The position numbers and the translations under genes were made by a program. Below, in pieces: positions 11,665 to 41,476 of a stretch of DNA of 44,542 nt. The stretch is from Helicobacteraceae bacterium (lineage in GTDB: Bacteria > Campylobacterota > Campylobacteria > Campylobacterales > Sulfurimonadaceae). The stretch is taken from positions 1 through 44,542 of the forward strand of contig JAMOSG010000020.1 of assembly GCA_027063225.1 (NCBI GenBank), in the 5' to 3' direction. Each line of letters opens with the position of its first letter. Within the stretch, counting starts at the first letter, position 1. The notes below the pieces were generated by a model. That model did no database searches. It was not told the DNA's origin and saw nothing but the letters and a program-made list of their open reading frames with translations.

Positions 11665-12972
11665 TTAGAACTCAAATACAACCCCAGCAAATACTCCAAA
11701 AAAGAGTGTTCCAGCCAAAAAGATAGCTTGAGCAAAATAAACTTTCAAAGAGATAGGGTTTATCTTATTCTCTTTTGTTGCATCTTCAAAATAGAAATAC
11801 CTTACAATCGAAGCATAATACCCAACTGACAAAGCAGAGTTAAGTAAAACAAAAAGTGCAACAAATACTAAATTAACATCTACTAAAGCATAAACCATAA
11901 CAGCTTTTGCTAAAAATCCAGCTAAAAGGGGAATCCCAGCAAGCGAAAAGAGTTGCACGCTAAAAAATAGAGCACTCAATTTATCTTTTTTTCCTAAAGC
12001 TTTTAAATCTTCTAAATAAAGCTCCCCTTTAGAATCTGAGAGTTTATCTACAAGTAAAAAAAGTGCTGTTTGCATAAAGATATATGCAATTGCCATATAT
12101 AAAAGTGCATTTTGTGCATAGGCACTTTTTACACTTACAAAAGCTAAAAGCATATACCCCGCATGAGCTATAGAGGAGTAGCTTAAAATTTTTGTTATCT
12201 CTTTAGAAAAGAGTGCTAAAAAGTTTCCAAGGGTGATAGTAACTAATGCCAAAACAAGTAAAATTGGTTCAGAAAAAGTTGTGTTTTTTTCAAGAAAAGG
12301 GGCAAAGGTTTTAAACGTTGCTACAAATACAACTGTTTTTGCAATTCCCGATAAAATAGCACTGTTTGCAGGGGAAATCTCTGCGTAACTATCTGCTGCC
12401 CAAGTGTGCATAGGTACAATTGTTAGTTTGTAAAAAACACCAAATAAAATAAGCCAAATACCCACACTTCCAAAACCTTTTACTTCAAGAGAAACAGCTT
12501 CCAATAAAGAGTGTCCCTCTAAAAGGTACAAAGCAACACCAAGCACAATAATAGCAGTTGCAACAGATCCAGATATAAACATCTTAATAGCCCCTTGAGC
12601 TTCTTTTTTTGTTCGTATAAAACTCACCAAAATAAAAGAAACAATACTTAAACTCTCAAAGGCAATCACAAAACTCACTAAAGTGTTACTCTCTAAAACC
12701 AATAGAGCCGTTGCAACTAAAAAGAGTGTTTGCGTAATTGCAATTGTTTGTTCTAAATGCAATAGTGTTGCTATGGTAACAACAAATAAAACAAGCTCAA
12801 AAAGGATAAACGAAGATGGTGTTTCAAACCCAACTAAAGGTGTTGCAGTGTGCATTAAAGAAACTCCAAAAGCAGCTATGACAACAACAATGCTCAATGG
12901 TTGTAAAATTTTTACATTACGCACACCAAAAGAGAGAAGTGCCATCCCAAACAAAAATACAAATGGACTCAC
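11665..12972 (-). CDS. nuoN: Complex I membrane subunit NuoN (435 aa)
   Basis: An antiporter-like proton-pumping subunit in the membrane arm of NADH:quinone oxidoreductase-type complex I. About fourteen hydrophobic helices are visible. The conserved VPMHTWAADSYAEISPANSA-like segment, with the family's H and Pro positions, lies near the middle, followed by KILSYSSIAHAGYML. The start is a GTG overlapping the nuoM stop. It is the last gene of the nuo operon, and its order after nuoL and nuoM is canonical. Confidence 0.93.
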   Translation of the reverse strand: MSPFVFLFGMALLSFGVRNVKILQPLSIVVVIAAFGVSLMHTATPLVGFETPSSFILFELVLFVVTIATLLHLEQTIAITQTLFLVATALLVLESNTLVSFVIAFESLSIVSFILVSFIRTKKEAQGAIKMFISGSVATAIIVLGVALYLLEGHSLLEAVSLEVKGFGSVGIWLILFGVFYKLTIVPMHTWAADSYAEISPANSAILSGIAKTVVFVATFKTFAPFLEKNTTFSEPILLVLALVTITLGNFLALFSKEITKILSYSSIAHAGYMLLAFVSVKSAYAQNALLYMAIAYIFMQTALFLLVDKLSDSKGELYLEDLKALGKKDKLSALFFSVQLFSLAGIPLLAGFLAKAVMVYALVDVNLVFVALFVLLNSALSVGYYASIVRYFYFEDATKENKINPISLKVYFAQAIFLAGTLFFGVFAGVVFEF

Positions 12973-14402
12973 ATCGCACCCCCTAAATTATATGCAGAAA
13001 AAACTTCATTAATCGCATCAAAAAGTGCTTGAGGATAAACACCAAAAGCAACGATAGCAATGCCAAAAACAGCCAATGCAAAAAATTCAACCCAAGAGAT
13101 ACTAAAATTACTCTCTTGCACTTTTTGACTCATAGGACCATAAATAACACGACGTAAAGTCCAAATAATATAGCCACTCCCTATCATCGCTCCAAAAGCG
13201 ATAAAAGCTACCCAAGCACCATAAGTATCTAAAGCACTTAAAAAGATTGTTATCTCCCCAACAAATCCCATCGTTGCAGGAAGCCCTAATGCACCAAGAC
13301 CAGCTAAAACAAATAAAGCAGAGATATAAGGTGCTTTTTGCATAATCCCTCCTAAATCTTGCATTTGCCAACTTTGTGTTTTATAGTGAAAAAAACCAGC
13401 TATTAGAAATAAAGGTGCAATAATAAACGCATGACCTATCATCTCAAAAAGTGCTGCACTTAACCCCTCATAACTTAGCGTTGCCATACCAATAGCTACC
13501 AATCCCATATGGGAGATAGAACTATATGCAACCATCTTTTTGAGGTGTGTTTCATACAGTGCCATCACCCCAGCATAAAGTAAACTCAAAATTCCAGCTC
13601 CAAGTAAAACAAAAGCATACTTATGGGCTTCTTGTGGAAGCATTAAAATCACAAAACGTATCATCGCATACGCTCCCATTTTAAGTAAAACTCCCGCTAA
13701 AAGTACCGAAATTGGAGCGGAAGCTTCTACATGTGCATCTGGTAGCCATGTATGAAATGGAAAAAGTGGCATCTTCACAGCAAACCCAACAAAAAGTAAC
13801 CACCAAATAAGTGTTGGTGTTACTAGCATACTCTCTTGTATTTGTGTCATATCAAATGTTGCAGTTTGTTTAAAAATGAGGAAAAAAGCAAGGAGTATAA
13901 ACATTGAAGCAACATGGGTGTAAAGGAAAAACTTTAATGCCGCATAAACTCTGCCATCACCTCCCCAAATACCAACTAAAAAGTACATAGGAATAAGTGT
14001 TAACTCCCAAAAGATAAAAAACCACATAAGGTTTGTACTCATAAAAACACCAAAAATAGCTCCACTAAAAAACAAAAGCAAAGAGAAATATGCAGATTCT
14101 TTTTGCATACTCCAACTAGAAAGTGTCACCAAAATAAGTAACAAAGATGTCAAAAGCAACATAACACTACTGAGTCTATCTATCTCTAGCGTTAAAATAA
14201 AACCAAACTCTTTTACCTCTAAAAACTTCCCTAACATCAAATAACCATTTTGAGGAAGTTGTAGATATAAAAAAAGTGTTTCAACAAAAAGAAAAACAAA
14301 ATACCCCAAAACAATATACTTCGCCAAAGGGCTTTTTTTTGTAAAAAGATACAAAAAACCTGAAAAAACCAGTGGGGCAAAAATAAGTGCTACATAACTC
14401 AT
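12969..14402 (-). CDS. nuoM: Complex I membrane subunit NuoM (477 aa)
   Basis: An antiporter-like subunit of the membrane arm. Family segments include FFIFWELTLIPMYFLVGIWG with the buried Glu, and FPFHTWLPDAHVEA followed by APISVLLAGVLLKMGAY. KKMVAYSSISHMGLV carries the half-channel Lys. The length is close to typical NuoM. It overlaps both nuoL and nuoN by 4 bases, so translation of the three antiporter-like subunits is coupled. Confidence 0.95.
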   Translation of the reverse strand: MSYVALIFAPLVFSGFLYLFTKKSPLAKYIVLGYFVFLFVETLFLYLQLPQNGYLMLGKFLEVKEFGFILTLEIDRLSSVMLLLTSLLLILVTLSSWSMQKESAYFSLLLFFSGAIFGVFMSTNLMWFFIFWELTLIPMYFLVGIWGGDGRVYAALKFFLYTHVASMFILLAFFLIFKQTATFDMTQIQESMLVTPTLIWWLLFVGFAVKMPLFPFHTWLPDAHVEASAPISVLLAGVLLKMGAYAMIRFVILMLPQEAHKYAFVLLGAGILSLLYAGVMALYETHLKKMVAYSSISHMGLVAIGMATLSYEGLSAALFEMIGHAFIIAPLFLIAGFFHYKTQSWQMQDLGGIMQKAPYISALFVLAGLGALGLPATMGFVGEITIFLSALDTYGAWVAFIAFGAMIGSGYIIWTLRRVIYGPMSQKVQESNFSISWVEFFALAVFGIAIVAFGVYPQALFDAINEVFSAYNLGGAM

Positions 14403-16249
14403 ATAAAATTCCTTACCAACATAACAAACACAAGCACAACAACTCCAAGAACCATACCACCTACTTGGTTACTCACTTGCGAACTTTTACTTAAACCAAA
14501 AAGGAGAAAAACTTTGTAACTTAGCCAAACAACACCATTTACCGCTTTATCTATAATATTTTTCTCAATAAACGCAACAAAAGAGGTAACAACACCTAAA
14601 ATAATAGTCTGCACAAACCACTCTATCATCCTCTCTACATAATACCCATGAAATAAAATCTGATGAATTGTTTTCATAAGTGGTTGAGCAGAAACTTTTT
14701 GCAATAGATCTAATCTTTTGTAGTAAAAAAACCAAACAAGAAATGCAAAAAAAACAATAACACCCATCATAAAAGGAAACAACCACCCAATATGTTCTTC
14801 ACTACCCTTTGTAGAAGTTATAAAAGAGATTAGCTCCTCTTGGAAAAAGCCTAAAGCTAAAGTAAGTACTGCCATAACTCCTAAAGGTAAAGCTATCCAA
14901 AACAAGCTTGGTGTTTTTATGGAGTTGTGAAGTTTTTCATCTTTTTGTGGTGATACAAATAGCAACACCCACAACCTTCCACCATACGCAATAGAAAGCA
15001 CACCAGCAATAAGCGTTAAACTACTAATAAGCCCAAATGTTTGAGGGTTTGTAAGTGTTGAGAGAATCACGGCATCTTTAGAGTAAAAACCACTAAAAGG
15101 TGGTAAACCACTTAAAGAGAGGATTCCCATCCCCATAAAAAGTGCTACTAAAAAGAGTTTTTTACCTAAAGCACCTAATTTCCACATATCTTTTGTGTGA
15201 TGTGCTACTAAAATAACCGCTCCAGCACTTAAAAACAAAAGTGCTTTAAAAATAGCATGATTAACAAGATGTGTCATCCCAGCAGCTAAAGAACCAGCAC
15301 CCAAACCAATAAACGCTAAAGAGAGATGCGACATAGTTGAGTATGCTAACACTTTTTTCATCTCACTTTGCACAAGTGCAGAGGTTGCTCCCACAAAAGC
15401 ACTCAGAGCTGCAACTGCTGCAACAACAATCAACGCTTGTGAAGCTACATAAAAATCAAACATTCTAGCTACAATATAAATTCCACTATTTACCATTGTT
15501 GCACCATGAATAAGTGCAGAAACAGTTGTTGGCCCCTCCATAGCTCTCATAAGCCAAGGAAAAAGTGGAAATTGTCCCGATTTTCCAATAGCCGCTATAA
15601 AAATAAAAATAGCAATAACATACATCAATGTAGAATCTATTTGGTTTGTCGCTGCTAAATGGTTTAGCGTTGCAATATCGAGTGTTTTTGTAAAATAAAA
15701 GAGCAACCCAATCGCAGCAAATAAAAATATATCTCCAAATTTTGTATATAAAAATGCAGCTACTCCAGCATCGGCTGGAGCTTTGTTGTAGTGCCAAAAA
15801 GATATAAGCAAATAACTTGCAAGTCCCATAAACTCCCAACCAACAAAAAGTCCTAAAAGCTCTTTGGCACTTACAAGCAAGATCATCCCACCAATAAAAA
15901 AGAGCATCTTTGCATAGTAACGTGCTTGATCTTTCTCCTCTTTCATATAATCGTGTGAGAAATGAATATCTAACAACCCTAAACCTGTAGCAATTAAAAG
16001 CATTATTAAAGAGAGTTTATCTATGTAAATTCCAAAAGGTAAAGCATTTTCACCAAAGCGAAACCACTCATAATCTATAACAAAAGGTTGCTCATATACA
16101 CTAAAGAGATACACCACATCTACAAATAATACAATGCTAAAAATATAAGCTAAAAAAAATGGTATTTTTTTATTGAGTTTCCCAACTACAAATGTAACAA
16201 TCGCCCCAATAAAAGGTAAAAGAAGCAAAGCAAGAACAAAACTACTCAT
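14399..16249 (-). CDS. nuoL: Complex I membrane subunit NuoL (616 aa)
   Basis: The distal antiporter-like subunit with the long lateral helix. Diagnostic segments are LLGLFVGWEFMGLASYLLI, GKSGQFPLFPWLMRAMEGPTTVSALIHGATMVNSG (read in two parts), and KKVLAYSTMSHLSLAFIG. The C-terminal third carries the extra helices and hydrophilic linker of NuoL. It overlaps nuoK by 8 bases and nuoM by 4. The length is at the normal value for bacterial NuoL. Confidence 0.95.
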   Translation of the reverse strand: MSSFVLALLLLPFIGAIVTFVVGKLNKKIPFFLAYIFSIVLFVDVVYLFSVYEQPFVIDYEWFRFGENALPFGIYIDKLSLIMLLIATGLGLLDIHFSHDYMKEEKDQARYYAKMLFFIGGMILLVSAKELLGLFVGWEFMGLASYLLISFWHYNKAPADAGVAAFLYTKFGDIFLFAAIGLLFYFTKTLDIATLNHLAATNQIDSTLMYVIAIFIFIAAIGKSGQFPLFPWLMRAMEGPTTVSALIHGATMVNSGIYIVARMFDFYVASQALIVVAAVAALSAFVGATSALVQSEMKKVLAYSTMSHLSLAFIGLGAGSLAAGMTHLVNHAIFKALLFLSAGAVILVAHHTKDMWKLGALGKKLFLVALFMGMGILSLSGLPPFSGFYSKDAVILSTLTNPQTFGLISSLTLIAGVLSIAYGGRLWVLLFVSPQKDEKLHNSIKTPSLFWIALPLGVMAVLTLALGFFQEELISFITSTKGSEEHIGWLFPFMMGVIVFFAFLVWFFYYKRLDLLQKVSAQPLMKTIHQILFHGYYVERMIEWFVQTIILGVVTSFVAFIEKNIIDKAVNGVVWLSYKVFLLFGLSKSSQVSNQVGGMVLGVVVLVFVMLVRNFI

Positions 16250-16547
16250 CTAAAGCCCCTTTTTGCGCGAAGTTATCTGGAGTGACTACGTTTGTCATTT
16301 TATTAGCTACACCAAAGAGTAAAATACCAACAGCAGCCTCAAGTGTAGCAATAATCATAACCATATATGCAAAAGGGAGATTATCTGGCAGGTTTAAATA
16401 CTTTGCACTTGATGCTAAAAGTAAAATAACACTATTTATGAGAATCTCCAACGAAAAAAAGATACGCAAAAAATCTTTATTTGAAACAAGTCCAAAAAGC
16501 CCTATGCTAAAAAGAGCAAAAGAGAAAACTACATCTATCTCAAACAT
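16242..16547 (-). CDS. nuoK: Complex I membrane subunit NuoK (101 aa)
   Basis: A three-helix subunit in the membrane arm. The second helix carries SLEILINSVILLL and the third has MIIATLEAAVGILLF, each with the buried Glu needed for proton translocation. The ATG at 16547 follows a strong GGGGGGAAATAAG sequence; a longer start at 16568 is possible but would overlap nuoJ and adds non-homologous residues. nuoL starts before it ends. Confidence 0.94.
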   Translation of the reverse strand: MFEIDVVFSFALFSIGLFGLVSNKDFLRIFFSLEILINSVILLLASSAKYLNLPDNLPFAYMVMIIATLEAAVGILLFGVANKMTNVVTPDNFAQKGALDE

Positions 16548-16548
16548 C

Positions 16549-17013
16549 TTATTTCCCCCCTTTGGCAAGAACTTTTACCATCTTAATAGTGCCATACAAC
16601 AAACTCGATGCAACCAAAGCAAAGAGAATAACAAAGTCACTATATTTTTGTACAAATAACTCTTTTTGCTCCACATTTGAGAGTGAACCTACATCTAAAG
16701 TGGCACTGTTTGCAAAAAATAAACTCACACTTCCAACAAAAAATAAAAATACAAAAAAAGCACTCCATGGGTTGAGTTTACTTTGTGGAAACTCTACTCC
16801 AATAAGGGTAATTCCAAAAAGCATAAGTACAGAGATTCCCCCTGCATAAACAAAGATTTGGAACAAACCTAAAAGCTTCTCATCTAAAGCAATGTAGTAC
16901 AAACCAAGCACTAATAACATTAATGCAAAAGAGATAAGCGCTGCTATACTTTTTTTCAGTGTTAAAGATGCAATAGCCAAAATTAACACCAACGTTAAAA
17001 AAACAATATTCAC
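16549..17013 (-). CDS. nuoJ: Complex I membrane subunit NuoJ (154 aa)
   Basis: A five-helix membrane subunit. The third-helix segment FQIFVYAGGISVLMLFGI with the conserved Tyr and Gly residues is diagnostic. The start is taken as the GTG at 17013, which overlaps the nuoI stop codon in the sequence GTGA and is preceded by GGGGGAAG. The open frame extends further upstream, but those residues are a shadow of nuoI. It precedes nuoK by one base. Confidence 0.93.
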   Translation of the reverse strand: MNIVFLTLVLILAIASLTLKKSIAALISFALMLLVLGLYYIALDEKLLGLFQIFVYAGGISVLMLFGITLIGVEFPQSKLNPWSAFFVFLFFVGSVSLFFANSATLDVGSLSNVEQKELFVQKYSDFVILFALVASSLLYGTIKMVKVLAKGGK

Positions 17014-17522
17014 GATTCTTCCCCCTCTTGTGCTTTTGCTGCAGCAGCCTCTGCTGCTTTTTTCTTTGCTGCAAGCTCTTTTTTTACACGCGCAGCTTCC
17101 TCCTCCTCTAAACGGGCATCTATATAACTTTGTGGAATATCTACGTGAACCCAAAAATCTTCTTGATCTTTGTGCCATCCTCCACTTATCATATCGTATC
17201 GCCCTCCACTTAGAACAATCGATTTATGTGGTTTTGTAGGGCAAACATCTTCACATAATCCACAAAAAATACAAATACTTAAATTAACTTCTGGGACAAT
17301 ATTTTGCTTTTTAAATGGAAGATGTTTCATTGTAATTGCACCTGTTGGACAGATTTTATTACAAGAGTCACACCCTATACAAGTTTCATAATCTATTGAA
17401 TGTTTTCCTCTATAGCGTGAAGAGGTATGCATTTTTGTAAAACGAACATCCTCTTGAGCTGGAGACTTTACAAAAAGTGCACGTGAAACTCTTAAAACTT
17501 TTTTTAGTATCTCTAAAATCAT
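17010..17522 (-). CDS. nuoI: Complex I iron-sulphur subunit NuoI with a charged C-terminal tail (170 aa)
   Basis: Carries the two 4Fe-4S clusters N6a and N6b on the way to the quinone. The ligands are C48-C51-C54-C58 (CIGCDSCNKICP) and C84-C87-C90-C94 (CIFCGLCEDVCP). The start at 17522 overlaps the nuoH stop (ATGA); the upstream part of the frame is a shadow of nuoH. Residues about 137-170 form a Glu/Lys/Ala-rich, probably helical tail that is not part of the core fold. With no NuoE/F/G gene in the cluster, this tail and the exposed N6a side could be where another electron donor docks; that is inference. Confidence 0.95.
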   Translation of the reverse strand: MILEILKKVLRVSRALFVKSPAQEDVRFTKMHTSSRYRGKHSIDYETCIGCDSCNKICPTGAITMKHLPFKKQNIVPEVNLSICIFCGLCEDVCPTKPHKSIVLSGGRYDMISGGWHKDQEDFWVHVDIPQSYIDARLEEEEAARVKKELAAKKKAAEAAAAKAQEGEES

Positions 17523-18469
17523 TGTGCTGCTCCAAAAAAGAGTATTTTTGCAGCCATAATCCACGCAAGATTTAAAAGTGTTAGTGGCACTAAATAACTC
17601 CAAGAAAATTGTAACATCTGCTTCATTGTAATACGTGGTGTACTAGCACGAATAACCATCATAACAACAGCAATTGCTAACATTTTTAAAAAGAGGCATA
17701 AAAAATTATCAAAAAACAATCCTCTATAACCACCTAAAAATAAAGTAGCAGCTCCAGCAAACACCGCCATAAACTCTGAAAACTCTGCAATTTTTAAAAG
17801 AAAATAGTTTGTTCCACTATACTCTGTGTAAAAACCATATACTATCTCTTGTTCTGCATCTGGAATATTAAAAGGTGGTTGTTCTAGAAGTCCCAAAAGA
17901 GCTATAAAATAGAGGAAAAAACCTGGAATCAAAACAACAAAACTAAGCCAAGAACTTGATTCTACAATACTATTTAAATTTAATGTCCCAAATAAAATAG
18001 CTGGAGAGAGTGCTGCTAGAAAAAAACTTGTTTCCATTGATATCATCTGTGTTAAAACACGAATTCCCCCTAAAAAGGAGTATTTGTTATTAGAACCAAA
18101 ACCAGTTAAAAAAAGTAAAAAAGGCTCAATACCAATTAACACAACAAGCACCAATAAAGCATAATTGCTAGAAAGAACTGTACTACCTGAGTTCCATGGA
18201 ATTAACGCTGTTGGCACAATGGCAATACTCGCAGCTAAAAGTGGCATAAGAGAAAAAAGATATGGGTTTACACCTTGAGGGGTGATACTCTCTTTTGTAA
18301 GGAGTTTACTTAAATCAAAAAGTGTTTGGTAGCTCCCTGCTGGACCATTAAAACTAGGACCAACTCTTTTATGAAGGGCTGCCATAAACTTTCTAAAAAA
18401 CCAAAAAAGTACAACAGTCCACACAAGAATATATAAAATTCCTGGAAAAATAAAAATTTCAAATAACAT
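17519..18469 (-). CDS. nuoH: Complex I membrane subunit NuoH (316 aa)
   Basis: The heel subunit that forms the quinone chamber with NuoB and NuoD. Signature regions are KRVGPSFNGPAGSYQTLFD near the N-terminus and EQPPFNIPDAEQEIVYGFYTEYSG in the cytoplasmic loop that holds the quinone-linked acidic residues. About eight membrane helices are present. The gene lies 9 bases after nuoCD and overlaps nuoI. Length is typical. Confidence 0.95.
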   Translation of the reverse strand: MLFEIFIFPGILYILVWTVVLFWFFRKFMAALHKRVGPSFNGPAGSYQTLFDLSKLLTKESITPQGVNPYLFSLMPLLAASIAIVPTALIPWNSGSTVLSSNYALLVLVVLIGIEPFLLFLTGFGSNNKYSFLGGIRVLTQMISMETSFFLAALSPAILFGTLNLNSIVESSSWLSFVVLIPGFFLYFIALLGLLEQPPFNIPDAEQEIVYGFYTEYSGTNYFLLKIAEFSEFMAVFAGAATLFLGGYRGLFFDNFLCLFLKMLAIAVVMMVIRASTPRITMKQMLQFSWSYLVPLTLLNLAWIMAAKILFFGAAQ

Positions 18470-18478
18470 CTCTTTGTC

Positions 18479-20122
18479 CTATCTGTCTAAATCGCCTTGG
18501 CAGATATATAAACTACCAAAAACAAGTGGAATATCTGAAAGAGTTTCCCCTTTTAAAAGATGTTCAACCATCATTGTATGGTTAAAGCTTGGTGCTTTCA
18601 TCTTTAAACGGTAAGGAGATTTTGCTTTCTCTTGTGTTACTAGGTGCATTAAAACCTCTCCCCTTGCCCACTCAACACGTGCTATAGCCTCCCCTTTTGG
18701 AAGCTTTTTAGGCATTTTTACCATATAATCTTTTGTTGGGTTAAACTCCCCCTCTTCAATCTTTTGTTCAATATGTTTTTTTGCCTGTTTAATAATAGAA
18801 ACAGACTGCTCAATCTCCTCAAAAAGTTGAAAAAGTCTATCTTTTGCACTACCACCTTTTTGTGTTACATACTCTAGCTCTATTTGATCATACGCAGCAT
18901 AAGGCTCATCTATGCGGATATCTGTTTTTACTCCACTTGCACGTGCAACAACTCCACATAAAGCATACTCCTGCACCTCATCTTGCGTTAAAATTCCAAG
19001 TTTTGCAGCACGCATTTTCATAGTTGGATTATTAATAAAAATATTTTTAATATCCTCTTTTGTTGCATCAAACTTATCTAGTGCTTTTTGAAGCTCCTCT
19101 AACATTTCAGGTGCCAAACCATAACGCACACCACCAGCTTCTACAGAGGCAGTTGCTATTCTTGCTCCACTATAACTCTCTAAAAAGTCTAAAAAGAGTT
19201 CACGCATATCCATATTCCACATAGCAACAGTATGAAGCCCCATAGCGTTGTAAAAACCACCCATTCCCATCATATGGGAGGAGATTCTTCCAACTTCACC
19301 AAGTAAAACACGCATCCATTTTGCAAACTCTGTTATCTCTATCTCTGCAATCTCCTCTACAGCTTGAGCATAACACACCATTGAATTGATATTGTCCATA
19401 AAACAAAGTCGCTCAACAGCGACAATAGCCCCCACAAAATCTTTTTGCGTAACAAGGTGTTCAAGGGCGCGCCAAACAAATCCAATATCTGGATCAATCC
19501 CTAAAATATCTTCTCCATCACAATGCACTTTTAAGCGAATTGGTCCACTAGCTGGGTGTGTTGGACCCCAATTTAAAATCATCTCTGAAGAGTTTGGATC
19601 GAGCTTGTTTTCACTTAGATGCTCCTCCTCTTGAAATGACTCTACAATTAAGTTCATATTTTCTACACTATTTTTTTCATGCTCTTGCCAATCAAAATCT
19701 TTCCTAAAAGGAAATTTATTGTAATAATCTTGAGAAAGGATAATTGGTCTCAAATCTGGATGGTTTAAAAACTTGACACCAAACATAGAGTAAGCTTCTC
19801 TTTCATGCCATAAAGCACCTTTGAAGAGGTTACTTAAAGACTCAATTTTACAATGCTTTAATTCACGTGGAATATCACATTTAAGCCAACAATTTCTTTT
19901 TGTTACTAAATCTTCAAAAAAATAGTTCATCTCAATTTTATTTTCATCTATAAAATCTGTTGGAGAGATTGTAGAGATAGTTCTTAAACCATTTTTTTGC
20001 AACATTTGAGCAACATCGAGCAAGTTGGAACTAAAAGAGAGCTTTACTTTTAACCATGAAGTTTTATACTCTGTTATATACTCTGTATCAAACAAAGAAA
20101 AAATATTTTTTAAATCATCCAT
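18479..20122 (-). CDS. nuoCD: Fused complex I subunit NuoCD (547 aa)
   Basis: Residues about 1-160 correspond to NuoC ([27 protein letters not shown] with the family signature [11 protein letters not shown]) and about 175-547 to the 49-kDa subunit NuoD. The NuoD part has [15 protein letters not shown], the quinone-site [16 protein letters not shown], and the C-terminal [13 protein letters not shown]. NuoC and NuoD are separate in Campylobacter, so the fusion sets this operon apart. NuoC's short linker (about 150-178) is acidic. It shares one base with the nuoB stop. Confidence 0.95.
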
Positions 20123-20595
20123 TAAAATTTCATCTCCTTATATAGTCCACCCTCACTCGCTGCACTTGGGATGCCATCTTTTATTTTTTGTTTAATCTGC
20201 TCTAATCCACTAATGATAGCTTCTGGAGTTGGAGGGCAACCTGCTACAAAAACATCTGCTGGTAAAATCTCTGTTGGATTTTTCACAACCGCTAAAGAGT
20301 CATTATAAGGTCCACCATCAAAAGAGCAAGCACCAAGTGCTAAAACATATTTTGGCTCTGGCATCTGTTGATATGTTCGTAAAAGAGCAGGCAATACTTT
20401 TTTAGTAATAAGCCCCGTTATTACCAAAACATCAGCTTGACGTGGACTTGGTGTTGGTAAGTATCCATAACGTTCCCAATCGTAACGAGGTCCCATCGCA
20501 GCAGCCATTTCCAAAGAGCAACACCCTGTACAAAAATGAGCCATCCATACACTTTCACTTTTTGAATGAGCAAAAAAATCAAATATTTTTAACAT
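20122..20595 (-). CDS. nuoB: Complex I iron-sulphur subunit NuoB (157 aa)
   Basis: Holds the terminal cluster N2 that reduces quinone. The unusual tandem-cysteine ligand set is intact: C25-C26 (FCTGCCSLE), C90 (LGACSFDGG) and C120 (VAGCPPTPE). The length matches the family core. It overlaps nuoA by 17 bases. The N-terminal [20 protein letters not shown] fits the NuoB-like proteins of NADH-module-free complexes as well as ordinary NuoB. Confidence 0.95.
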
Positions 20596-20917
20596 ATCTA
20601 TACTCCCTCATAGCAATAGAGATTGCCAATGCCATAATAGTTGCAAAAACTATGGCAATAATCTGCGTATGCAAAGTTGTAGCGTACACAAATAGTGTAA
20701 AAAACAACCCTGTCATATCTGCAACAATAAACATAATAGCAAACATAAAAAATCCAAAATTTGCTTTTCTTGGTTGTGAACTACTTGGTGGTAAACCACA
20801 CTCAAAGTGTTCATTTTTCATCTTGTTTGGTTTATAGGGTGCTATTAAAATCCCCACAAAGTAAAGAACAAAAATACCAAATGCAATCCCAAGTGTGTAG
20901 ATAATAAGTGTTTCTAT
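20579..20917 (-). CDS. nuoA: Complex I membrane subunit NuoA with a non-canonical start (112 aa)
   Basis: A three-helix subunit recognised by PYKPNKMKNEHFECGLPP and the two following helices (FMFAIMFIVADMTGLFF and AIVFATIMALAISIA). The first possible ATG/GTG/TTG start in this frame is a GTG at 20857, which would remove most of helix 1. In-frame codons upstream encode an excellent first helix (ETLIIYTLGIAFGIF and on), and an ATA at 20917 lies 6 bases after AAAGGGG. I therefore place the start at ATA 20917, overlapping the bioD stop codon. Either a rare start codon is used or the base is a recent mutation or an error. Confidence 0.8.
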   Translation of the reverse strand: METLIIYTLGIAFGIFVLYFVGILIAPYKPNKMKNEHFECGLPPSSSQPRKANFGFFMFAIMFIVADMTGLFFTLFVYATTLHTQIIAIVFATIMALAISIAMREYRYVKNI

Positions 20918-40327: not shown

Positions 40328-41476
40328 ATGCCAGGTAAAACACAAAGAAAATATGTTGGTGAACTTATGAGATTTAATAAATCGCTAAAAGTACCATTAT
40401 ATAAAGTTAAGTCTGTGCTTCCATTAAATTATACTAAATATGACATTTTAAATTTATTTAAAGAATTATTTCCTTATGAATGGAATATTATAAAAGAACG
40501 CTATAAAATATATAAAGAAAAAGATGATTTTTTAAAAAAAGTAGGTAAAAAAATTAGATATAAGCCAACTTTGCCAGAATATTATTTATTTGAACTTCAA
40601 AAAGTAAAACATATACTGTCTCAAAGGCAAAAAAAATTACATGCAATAAATTTTAATGAAACAAATAGATTAGAGAAACTAGGTAAACTTGGTGAAGAAA
40701 CAAGAATACGAATGACTAAAATAAATGAAAAAATTGATTTAGCTAAAGAGTATATTCAAGATGTTGAACCCTCATATATAGATATATTTATACATGCTTA
40801 TCATAAAGATGGAATTTCACAAGATGGAAAAATGGAGATAGTTAAAGAATTGCAAAAATATGATTCTAGTAAAACTTTAGAGTTTTTTCAAAAATTAAAT
40901 GATAGTGAAAAAAATAGTCAAATTAGAATTGTTGCTTTTAAGCACCTTCAATCAATAGGAAAATATGTTAAATTACGAAAATCTTTTAAAGGTAAAAGAA
41001 AGACATATATGACAGAAAAAACTAATTTCGACATGAAACCTTTAGATTTATTTGAAAAAATAGAAAGTAATTTAGTTCAAAATAAAAAATCTTATGATAT
41101 TTTCATTTCACATAGTTTTAAAGATAATATATTAGTTAAGAAAATTATAAAAAAACTTAATAAATATAATTTAAATATATATTGTGACTGGATTAGTGAT
41201 AATGATTTTTTGAAAAGAACATATGCAGGTGACTATACAAAAGCTATTCTAAAAAGAAGAATAGAACAATCAAAAAAAGTACTATTTATTAAAACAAATC
41301 ATACTAATGATAAATCAAATAATTTCTATTCAGAATGGGTTAAGATGGAAATTTTACATGCTAAATCTATAAATAAGCCTATAGAACATATAGATTTTAC
41401 AAATAGTGATCAGAGAGAATTTCCATTGTATATATATAATGAAGAAATCAAGGAATTAGTTAATGGAAATAGATAG
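40328..41476 (+). CDS. Cassette 2: TIR-domain protein (382 aa)
   Basis: The C-terminal TIR domain spans about residues 255-355: SYDIFISHSFKDN is box 1, and the helix SEWVKMEILHAK carries the expected catalytic Glu (E341) of NAD-cleaving TIR proteins. Residues 1-250 are an unrecognised, mainly helical and strongly basic region with a probable coiled coil at about 85-145. No membrane helix is seen. AAGGAAAAAA precedes the ATG. The end overlaps the next gene by 14 bases. The three genes in this cassette form a tight operon, suggesting one system; anti-phage defence by NAD cleavage or signalling is the inference. Codon usage is very AT-rich. Confidence 0.85.
   Translation: MPGKTQRKYVGELMRFNKSLKVPLYKVKSVLPLNYTKYDILNLFKELFPYEWNIIKERYKIYKEKDDFLKKVGKKIRYKPTLPEYYLFELQKVKHILSQRQKKLHAINFNETNRLEKLGKLGEETRIRMTKINEKIDLAKEYIQDVEPSYIDIFIHAYHKDGISQDGKMEIVKELQKYDSSKTLEFFQKLNDSEKNSQIRIVAFKHLQSIGKYVKLRKSFKGKRKTYMTEKTNFDMKPLDLFEKIESNLVQNKKSYDIFISHSFKDNILVKKIIKKLNKYNLNIYCDWISDNDFLKRTYAGDYTKAILKRRIEQSKKVLFIKTNHTNDKSNNFYSEWVKMEILHAKSINKPIEHIDFTNSDQREFPLYIYNEEIKELVNGNR

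Follow-up and report, generated by a model that had tools for sequence, protein, structure and literature searches.

Complex I has been argued to descend from hydrogenase-like enzymes through the stepwise loss of four [NiFe] cysteines, the one halfway form whose structure is known being the membrane-bound sulfur reductase, MBS (PMC7684303, in its available part). According to the same part of that source, MBS lacks the quinone-site residues H38 and Y87 and retains two NiFe cysteines, C85 and C385, and the acceptor of its subunit MbsL is polysulfide, not quinone. In Nautilia profundicola and Caminibacter mediatlanticus, nuo genes without nuoE, nuoF and nuoG (nuoK was also reported missing) are treated as a partial complex I in the accessible text of Campbell et al., 2009 (PMC2628731), and an 11-subunit enzyme of Desulfitobacterium that likewise lacks this NADH module (N module) is a menaquinol producer with pyruvate:ferredoxin oxidoreductase (PFOR) as its candidate electron donor (PMC11238625, excerpted text). 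Here we describe the operon of an N-module-free complex in the window, a stretch of 44,542 nucleotides that is the whole of one contig (G000:C20, JAMOSG010000020.1) of a Helicobacteraceae genome assembly (GCA_027063225.1). The catalytic core of this complex appears less like that of complex I than like that of the archaeal sulfur-reducing enzyme, and it may be a living intermediate between hydrogenase-like pumps and complex I.

The metagenome-assembled genome (MAG) comprises 1.42 Mb in 39 contigs, is 77% complete and belongs to the genus Sulfurimonas as defined in GTDB. The operon, nuoA-B-CD-H-I-J-K-L-M-N, lies on the minus strand from about 20917 (nuoA) to 11665 (nuoN); the preliminary description had the ten genes, their order and their coordinates right, and no nuoE, nuoF or nuoG was found within the operon. 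All ten subunits exceed their curated Pfam cut-offs (PF00507, PF01058, PF00346 and PF00329 in a single 547-aa open reading frame, PF00146, Fer4, PF00499, PF00420 and three copies of PF00361), while several NCBIfam models score them under their cut-offs because the family is divergent. PF01512, the core domain of true NuoF, has no match anywhere in the genome, which is 77% complete. The features on which the argument turns lie in the two catalytic subunits:

20122..20595, minus strand: nuoB, the subunit of the proximal iron-sulfur cluster (PF01058)
20518..20532, minus strand: CTGCC motif of NuoB (C22, C25, C26), combining the CxxC spacing of MBS and hydrogenases with the tandem CC of complex I
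18479..20122, minus strand: nuoCD, fused, 547 aa, with PF00329 and PF00346 in one reading frame
19541..19558, minus strand: HPASGP of NuoD (residues 189-194) at the place of Nqo4 H38, one residue shorter and without the His
19436..19438, minus strand: F229 of NuoD where complex I has its quinone-site Tyr (Nqo4 Y87)
19403..19405, minus strand: C240 of NuoD at the first Cys of the L1 CxxC NiFe motif (MbsL C85), invariant in a 34-row alignment
18500..18502, minus strand: C541 of NuoD at the first Cys of the L2 CxxC NiFe motif (MbsL C385), invariant in the same 34 rows

To characterize the acceptor site, we compared six columns in an alignment of 121 D-family rows: those of Nqo4 H38 and Y87 and of the four [NiFe] cysteines. 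In all 53 full-length rows (44 of them distinct) the family has S F C D C D, and in five truncated rows S F C D. The corresponding residues are T W C E C D in MbsL of Pyrococcus furiosus, H Y [DN] x [VI] E in complex I and x x C C C C in hydrogenases. The 44 distinct complex I rows (PDB chains, the epsilon type, the fused type of other Campylobacterota, Halobellus and Klebsiella) have the His without exception and the Tyr in 42 cases, the others being NdhH (N) and Klebsiella (W). All four NiFe cysteines are present in 14/14 hydrogenase rows; every full-length family member keeps two of the four, and these, C240 and C541, occupy the places of C85 and C385 in MbsL. In a second alignment the His column is a gap in the family, reflecting a one-residue deletion, and neither alignment places a His there.

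The proximal-cluster subunit has a mixed signature. Nearly all of 39 relatives carry HFC[TS]GCCSLE in NuoB (one has HLC), with C22, C25 and C26 in 39/39 and C90 and C120 in 38/39 (one gap). The same stretch reads G[LT][AS]CC in complex I, CNGC in hydrogenases and FCTGCGG in MbsJ; the MBS cysteine and the tandem pair of complex I therefore coexist in this family. The CTGC is as in MbsJ, and the extra adjacent Cys could serve as a fourth ligand of the proximal cluster.

Searches of the PDB gave results that depended on the segment used. The best match of the NuoB family profile was MbsJ (6u8y_J, E 6.5e-44, 152.7 bits; mammalian PSST scored 149 bits), and that of the C-terminal 148 residues of D was MbsL (E 1.3e-14). 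The whole CD profile matched Aquifex NuoCD2 best (241 bits, versus 182 bits for MbsL), so over the full chain the score gives MBS no advantage. We also considered identification by fold: an AlphaFold2 model of NuoCD (predicted local distance difference test (pLDDT) 79.4, predicted template modelling score 0.82, with the active-site stretches at pLDDT under 50-60) matched several complex I 49-kDa/NuoD chains at tied Z values of 32-34, with MbsL not among the 50 matches listed, and fold therefore does not discriminate.

Judged by these residues, the acceptor site differs from the complex I site and is similar to the MBS one. The preliminary description had taken the operon for an ordinary quinone-reactive complex I core, which is not supported for a D subunit that lacks both quinone-headgroup residues and carries the MBS cysteine pattern; quinone is thus no more than a candidate acceptor. 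The family-wide D pattern, without the quinone-site His and Tyr and with two of the four [NiFe] cysteines as in MbsL, is new: we found no description of the D and B residue pattern in Campylobacterota in the open-licence literature, with subscription journals outside the scope of the search, and the accessible portions of PMC10045233 and PMC12998232 contain nothing on this complex.

To place the family, we built trees from D (52 rows, LG+C20, diagnostic columns removed) and from B and D together (42 rows). In the D tree the family is a single clade (100/100) that lies outside complex I plus MbsL (99/97) and is separate from the hydrogenases (100/99). All sampled complex I forms a clade that excludes the family in both the D tree (97/92) and the B+D tree (100/99). 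The B+D tree groups MBS with complex I at weak support (89/74) and splits the family into a Nautiliales side (97/89) and a Sulfurimonas/Sulfurovum side (97/98). Approximately unbiased (AU) tests reject joining the family to the epsilon type (p 0.0042) or to the fused Campylobacterota type (p 0.0038); they do not reject joining it to MBS, represented by one sequence (p 0.213 for D, 0.275 for B+D), or to complex I without MBS (p 0.18 and 0.357). Since long branches meet in these trees, MBS is a single sequence, and the sampling is without Fpo and most phyla, what can be maintained is that the family is a deep-branching clade that falls outside the complex I sampled. The preliminary description had read the C-D fusion as a sign of separate origin. 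The origin is indeed separate from the Campylobacter type (trees; AU p 0.004). The fusion itself is no marker of the family, because other Campylobacterota have a different fused NuoCD of 540-567 aa and normal complex I type.

The family is sharply bounded. In an even sample of 397 genomes of the phylum, its profile scores above 960 bits in 15 genomes and the next score down is 277 bits. The closest named relatives of NuoCD are from Sulfurimonas and Helicobacteraceae MAGs (76-78% identity), followed by Sulfurovum, Nitratifractor and Nautiliaceae (58-61%). A MAG of Sulfurimonas crateris (L049) has a gene identical to that of G043, a genome of the same genus as the window's, and the assignment to Sulfurimonas follows from this. 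The complex is carried by 13 of 135 genomes of the genus, two of these matches being truncated at contig ends, and all 41 loci found in a locus scan are titled Campylobacterota, the scan having used family-specific peptides that are blind to more distant kin. Every Nautiliaceae genome with a strong match in the phylum sample has this type of NuoCD. Among the carrier genomes in the sample, G062, G096, G106 and G319 consist of a single contig; G062 has five D-family places, of which the four typed are the family NuoCD and three CCCC hydrogenases, and on this basis Nautiliaceae depend on the N-module-free complex.

Two variants were seen along the way. The most divergent Sulfurimonadaceae copy (L064/L136, genome G361) has GPAHPNSGPIS in place of the usual 11-residue stretch and 64% identity in H and I, with the six diagnostic residues unchanged. 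Two 455-aa D-family proteins on a very long branch (L126 1689-3056 in G059; L128 1820-3187 in G026) lack all six diagnostic residues; they belong to an energy-converting-hydrogenase-related complex, in genomes that both also carry the N-module-free family.

The remaining subunits bear on electron input and pumping:

20579..20917, minus strand: nuoA (PF00507, 48.5 bits), with the ECG motif of the loop between transmembrane helices 1 and 2 kept in 34/34
17519..18469, minus strand: nuoH, membrane anchor (PF00146, 268 bits), with the chamber loop ExPFxxPDxExE kept, its residues in 33-35 of 35
17010..17522, minus strand: nuoI, carrying two [4Fe-4S] motifs (eight Cys in 32-33 of 33, the sole miss being a gap) and ending in a charged tail
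16549..17013, minus strand: nuoJ, GTG start (PF00499)
16242..16547, minus strand: nuoK (PF00420)
14399..16249, minus strand: nuoL, antiporter-like (PF00361; TIGR01974 402.5 bits, cut-off 407.5)
12969..14402, minus strand: nuoM, antiporter-like (TIGR01972 408.6 bits, above cut-off)
11665..12972, minus strand: nuoN, antiporter-like (TIGR01770 206 bits)

The residues used for pumping are kept among relatives in NuoL (E139 30/30, K223 29/30, K298 29/30), NuoM (E133 26/26, K210 25/26, K288 26/26) and NuoN (E106 and K182, each 25/25). From conservation of this kind, the enzyme should pump and should pass electrons from NuoI to NuoB. The long charged tail noticed on NuoI is real, extending about 75 Ala/Lys/Glu-rich residues beyond the last Cys motif, and occurs likewise in relatives.

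Our preferred reading, to which we assign a probability of roughly 45%, is that vent Campylobacterota have here a second complex I-like enzyme, fed by ferredoxin and pumping protons, that forms its own clade outside complex I and uses menaquinone as an acceptor bound in a non-canonical way. Low-potential ferredoxin, made or needed by PFOR, would deliver electrons to the two [4Fe-4S] clusters of NuoI, from which they would reach the proximal cluster in NuoB and an acceptor within the chamber formed by B, D and H; this reaction would drive, or be driven by, the three antiporter-like subunits L, M and N. The enzyme could work in either direction, generating proton-motive force from ferredoxin or, in reverse, spending quinol and proton-motive force to reduce ferredoxin for the reverse tricarboxylic acid (TCA) cycle. 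The sequences themselves establish the subunit composition, the cluster ligands, the pump and active-site residues, the distinct clade and, in relatives, the neighbourhood of nifJ and of a CoA-disulfide-reductase-like gene; the donor, the acceptor, pumping and its direction are inferred from these. Ferredoxin input without NADH is likely. Ferredoxin had been proposed as a carrier in the preliminary description, and this has become more probable because a PFOR gene (nifJ) lies within the operon of two relatives, between nuoJ and nuoK and together with a dihydroorotate-dehydrogenase-like gene (G026/L082 and L056; TIGR02176 1810 and 1791 bits).

This reading draws on subunits above their Pfam cut-offs, a NuoM above the complex I cut-off, cluster cysteines and pump residues kept across the family, and the dependence of Nautiliaceae on the complex. 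For menaquinone speak the complex I arm, the example of the Desulfitobacterium enzyme (PMC11238625, excerpted text) and, in one genome, the genes of a menaquinol:fumarate reductase, frdC-frdA, which begin 49 bp past nuoN in the same orientation (G018/L083; L041 2-2466). The chamber loop of NuoH and the tandem Cys at cluster N2 are also kept, both of which are expected of a complex I-type quinone reductase. Several observations weigh against our reading. H38 and Y87 occur in 0/44 distinct full-length family members, the D pattern is that of MbsL, a CoA-disulfide-reductase-like gene of the kind that accompanies MBS and MBX in sulfur reduction is linked to the operon, and no ferredoxin gene was seen adjoining it, though none was sought. 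On balance, menaquinone is somewhat more likely than polysulfide: a lipid acceptor falls a little short of even odds, and sulfane sulfur is the less probable of the two.

The strongest rival is an MBS-like sulfane-sulfur reductase on a complex I chassis, in which reduced ferredoxin would reduce polysulfide at the proximal cluster inside a hydrophobic chamber, and the three antiporter-like subunits, in place of the Mrp-type arm of MBS, would use this reaction to pump protons. We consider this possible, if rather unlikely. It draws on the near match of the D columns to MbsL, on the NuoB CTGC, which aligns to MbsJ without gaps, on the best PDB matches to MbsJ and, for the C-terminal segment of D, to MbsL, and on the flavoprotein. 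This CoA-disulfide-reductase-like protein, with a CAIPY motif and 5l1n as its best PDB match (164.7 bits), is encoded at most 50 bp from the operon in six loci (L048, L058, L059, L082, L083 and G319/L135). Within the genus it is present in 9/13 carriers (E 1e-100 or better) versus 8/122 non-carriers (Fisher p 4.4e-7, a test that treats genomes as independent, which they are not, and a count that excludes two weak matches at 1e-29 and 1e-34). Sulfur up-regulates nsr, the gene of an enzyme of this kind, together with the MBS homologue mbx in Thermotoga maritima (PMC9431562, in the part available). Among the 41 genomes with named loci, the flavoprotein is found at 44% identity or above in 23/30 on the Sulfurimonas/Sulfurovum side. 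Against the rival stand its count of 0/11 at that identity on the Nautiliales side, where one genome has a match at 35%, and the lack of a match in the window's own incomplete genome. The tandem C25 and C26 of NuoB would allow four Cys ligands, whereas catalysis in MBS needs an iron without a Cys ligand; the C85A/C385A variant of MbsL is as active as wild type (PMC7684303, available part), so the kept cysteines may be relics; and the frdCA pair follows the operon in one genome.

A bolder version of this idea, which we hold to be somewhat less probable again, is that MBS-type sulfur reductases and complex I have a living intermediate in this complex. It would join a three-pump complex I arm to an MBS-type catalytic module, reduce polysulfide with ferredoxin in sulfur-rich vents, and be partnered by a CoA-persulfide/disulfide reductase as MBS is by NSR in Thermococcales.

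We regard it as improbable that the enzyme works chiefly in reverse, with quinol (or sulfide-derived electrons) and proton-motive force reducing ferredoxin for two enzymes of the reverse TCA cycle, pyruvate synthase and 2-oxoglutarate synthase. The nifJ gene within two operons fits such a role, as do the carrier organisms, which we take to be autotrophic vent lineages. A link to strictly anaerobic life was rejected for Sulfurimonas, COX1 being present in 131/135 genomes of the genus including all 13 carriers; that this lifestyle is not commoner with the complex also counts for reverse operation. Reverse electron transport, to NAD(P)H, has already been proposed for the Nautilia complex (Campbell et al., 2009, PMC2628731, as far as the accessible text goes). 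However, sequence sets no direction, and carriers are a minority in the genus (13/135), and autotrophs without the complex manage.

Whether the complex could obtain an NADH module from elsewhere depends on the rest of the genome. A second nuo cluster, whose presence the preliminary description had proposed to check, was found on contig C8. Proton_antipo_M (PF00361) has six places genome-wide, three in the N-module-free operon and three on C8, where A, B, separate C and D, and H to N make up a full epsilon-type complex I along with two NuoG proteins (740 and 831 aa) and a 679-aa NuoF-fragment/GltD-like protein. The 679-aa protein (L037 9201-11240), which adjoins the two differing NuoG proteins, takes the place of NuoE/F; in it an iron-sulfur fragment of NuoF is fused with a NAD(P)/FAD domain that is GltD-like. 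The N-module-free operon is therefore a second complex, and C8, being a complete complex of its own, does not appear to serve it as a spare NADH module. That an ordinary complex I core borrows the NuoF/NuoG-like subunits of C8 is very improbable: these genes are present in the genome, but the cluster owns a complete B, C, D, H-N set, H38 and Y87 are lost in the N-module-free NuoD and kept in the C8 NuoD, and Nautilia has the same complex in a genome reported to be without nuoE, nuoF and nuoG (PMC2628731, accessible text).

In the window the operon is flanked by housekeeping genes, bioD and xseA upstream and dUTPase downstream. The nuoA frame opens at ATA (20917), with the first ATG, GTG or TTG only at 20857; the ATA overlaps the stop codon of bioD (ATAG, 20914-20917), and relatives have ATG at the same place. 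Either translation of nuoA is coupled and begins at a rare start codon, or the MAG has a base error there. In Nautiliaceae an AAA ATPase is always encoded upstream of the operon and a DUF7494/TPR protein mostly downstream; these conserved Nautiliales neighbours give no hint of the redox chemistry. Elsewhere in the window, 40328-41476 encodes a 382-aa protein with a weak TIR_2 match under cut-off (E 1e-4).

In this family an active site of the halfway kind is joined to the complete membrane arm of complex I, and its hosts are mesophilic to thermophilic bacteria. Whether the pump or the quinone site arose first can be asked directly here, as can the role of an enzyme so built when the quinone residues are missing. 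For Nautilia, whose only complex I-like enzyme this is, the interpretation changes as well.

Compared with known systems, the family shares with epsilon-type complex I (Campylobacter, Sulfurospirillum and its own C8 cluster) the subunit order B-C-D-H-N and the phylum; unlike the family, the epsilon type has separate C and D, NuoG-like subunits, normal H38/Y87 and GLACC. The N-module-free Nuo of Nautilia and Caminibacter very probably belongs to the same family, although in Sulfurimonas and Sulfurovum it sits beside an epsilon-type complex I; the accessible text of the Nautilia paper (PMC2628731) says nothing on active-site residues of D or B, and a nuoK-like open reading frame is present in complete Nautiliaceae operons (L045 and others), contrary to its report of a missing nuoK. 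The Desulfitobacterium enzyme also has no NuoEFG and a suspected low-potential input (PFOR, ferredoxin), but its C and D are separate genes. The F420H2 dehydrogenases Fpo and Fqo likewise lack NuoEFG, and the family D scores 251 bits with NCBIfam FpoD and 260 with NuoD. In FpoD of methanogens, too, the His may be missing and the first Cys kept, in which case the loss of H38 is no argument against a lipid acceptor. With the MBS of P. furiosus (6u8y; PMC7684303, available part) the family shares a D subunit without H38 and Y87 in which the first Cys of L1 and L2 is kept and the second ones are replaced by acids, a B subunit with CTGC at the proximal cluster, and a ferredoxin-type input subunit with two [4Fe-4S] clusters; unlike MBS, it has a complex I-type arm (NuoA, J, K and three antiporter-like subunits) with no Mrp B/C/E-type subunits in the operon, a fused C and D, and a NuoB with an extra tandem Cys.

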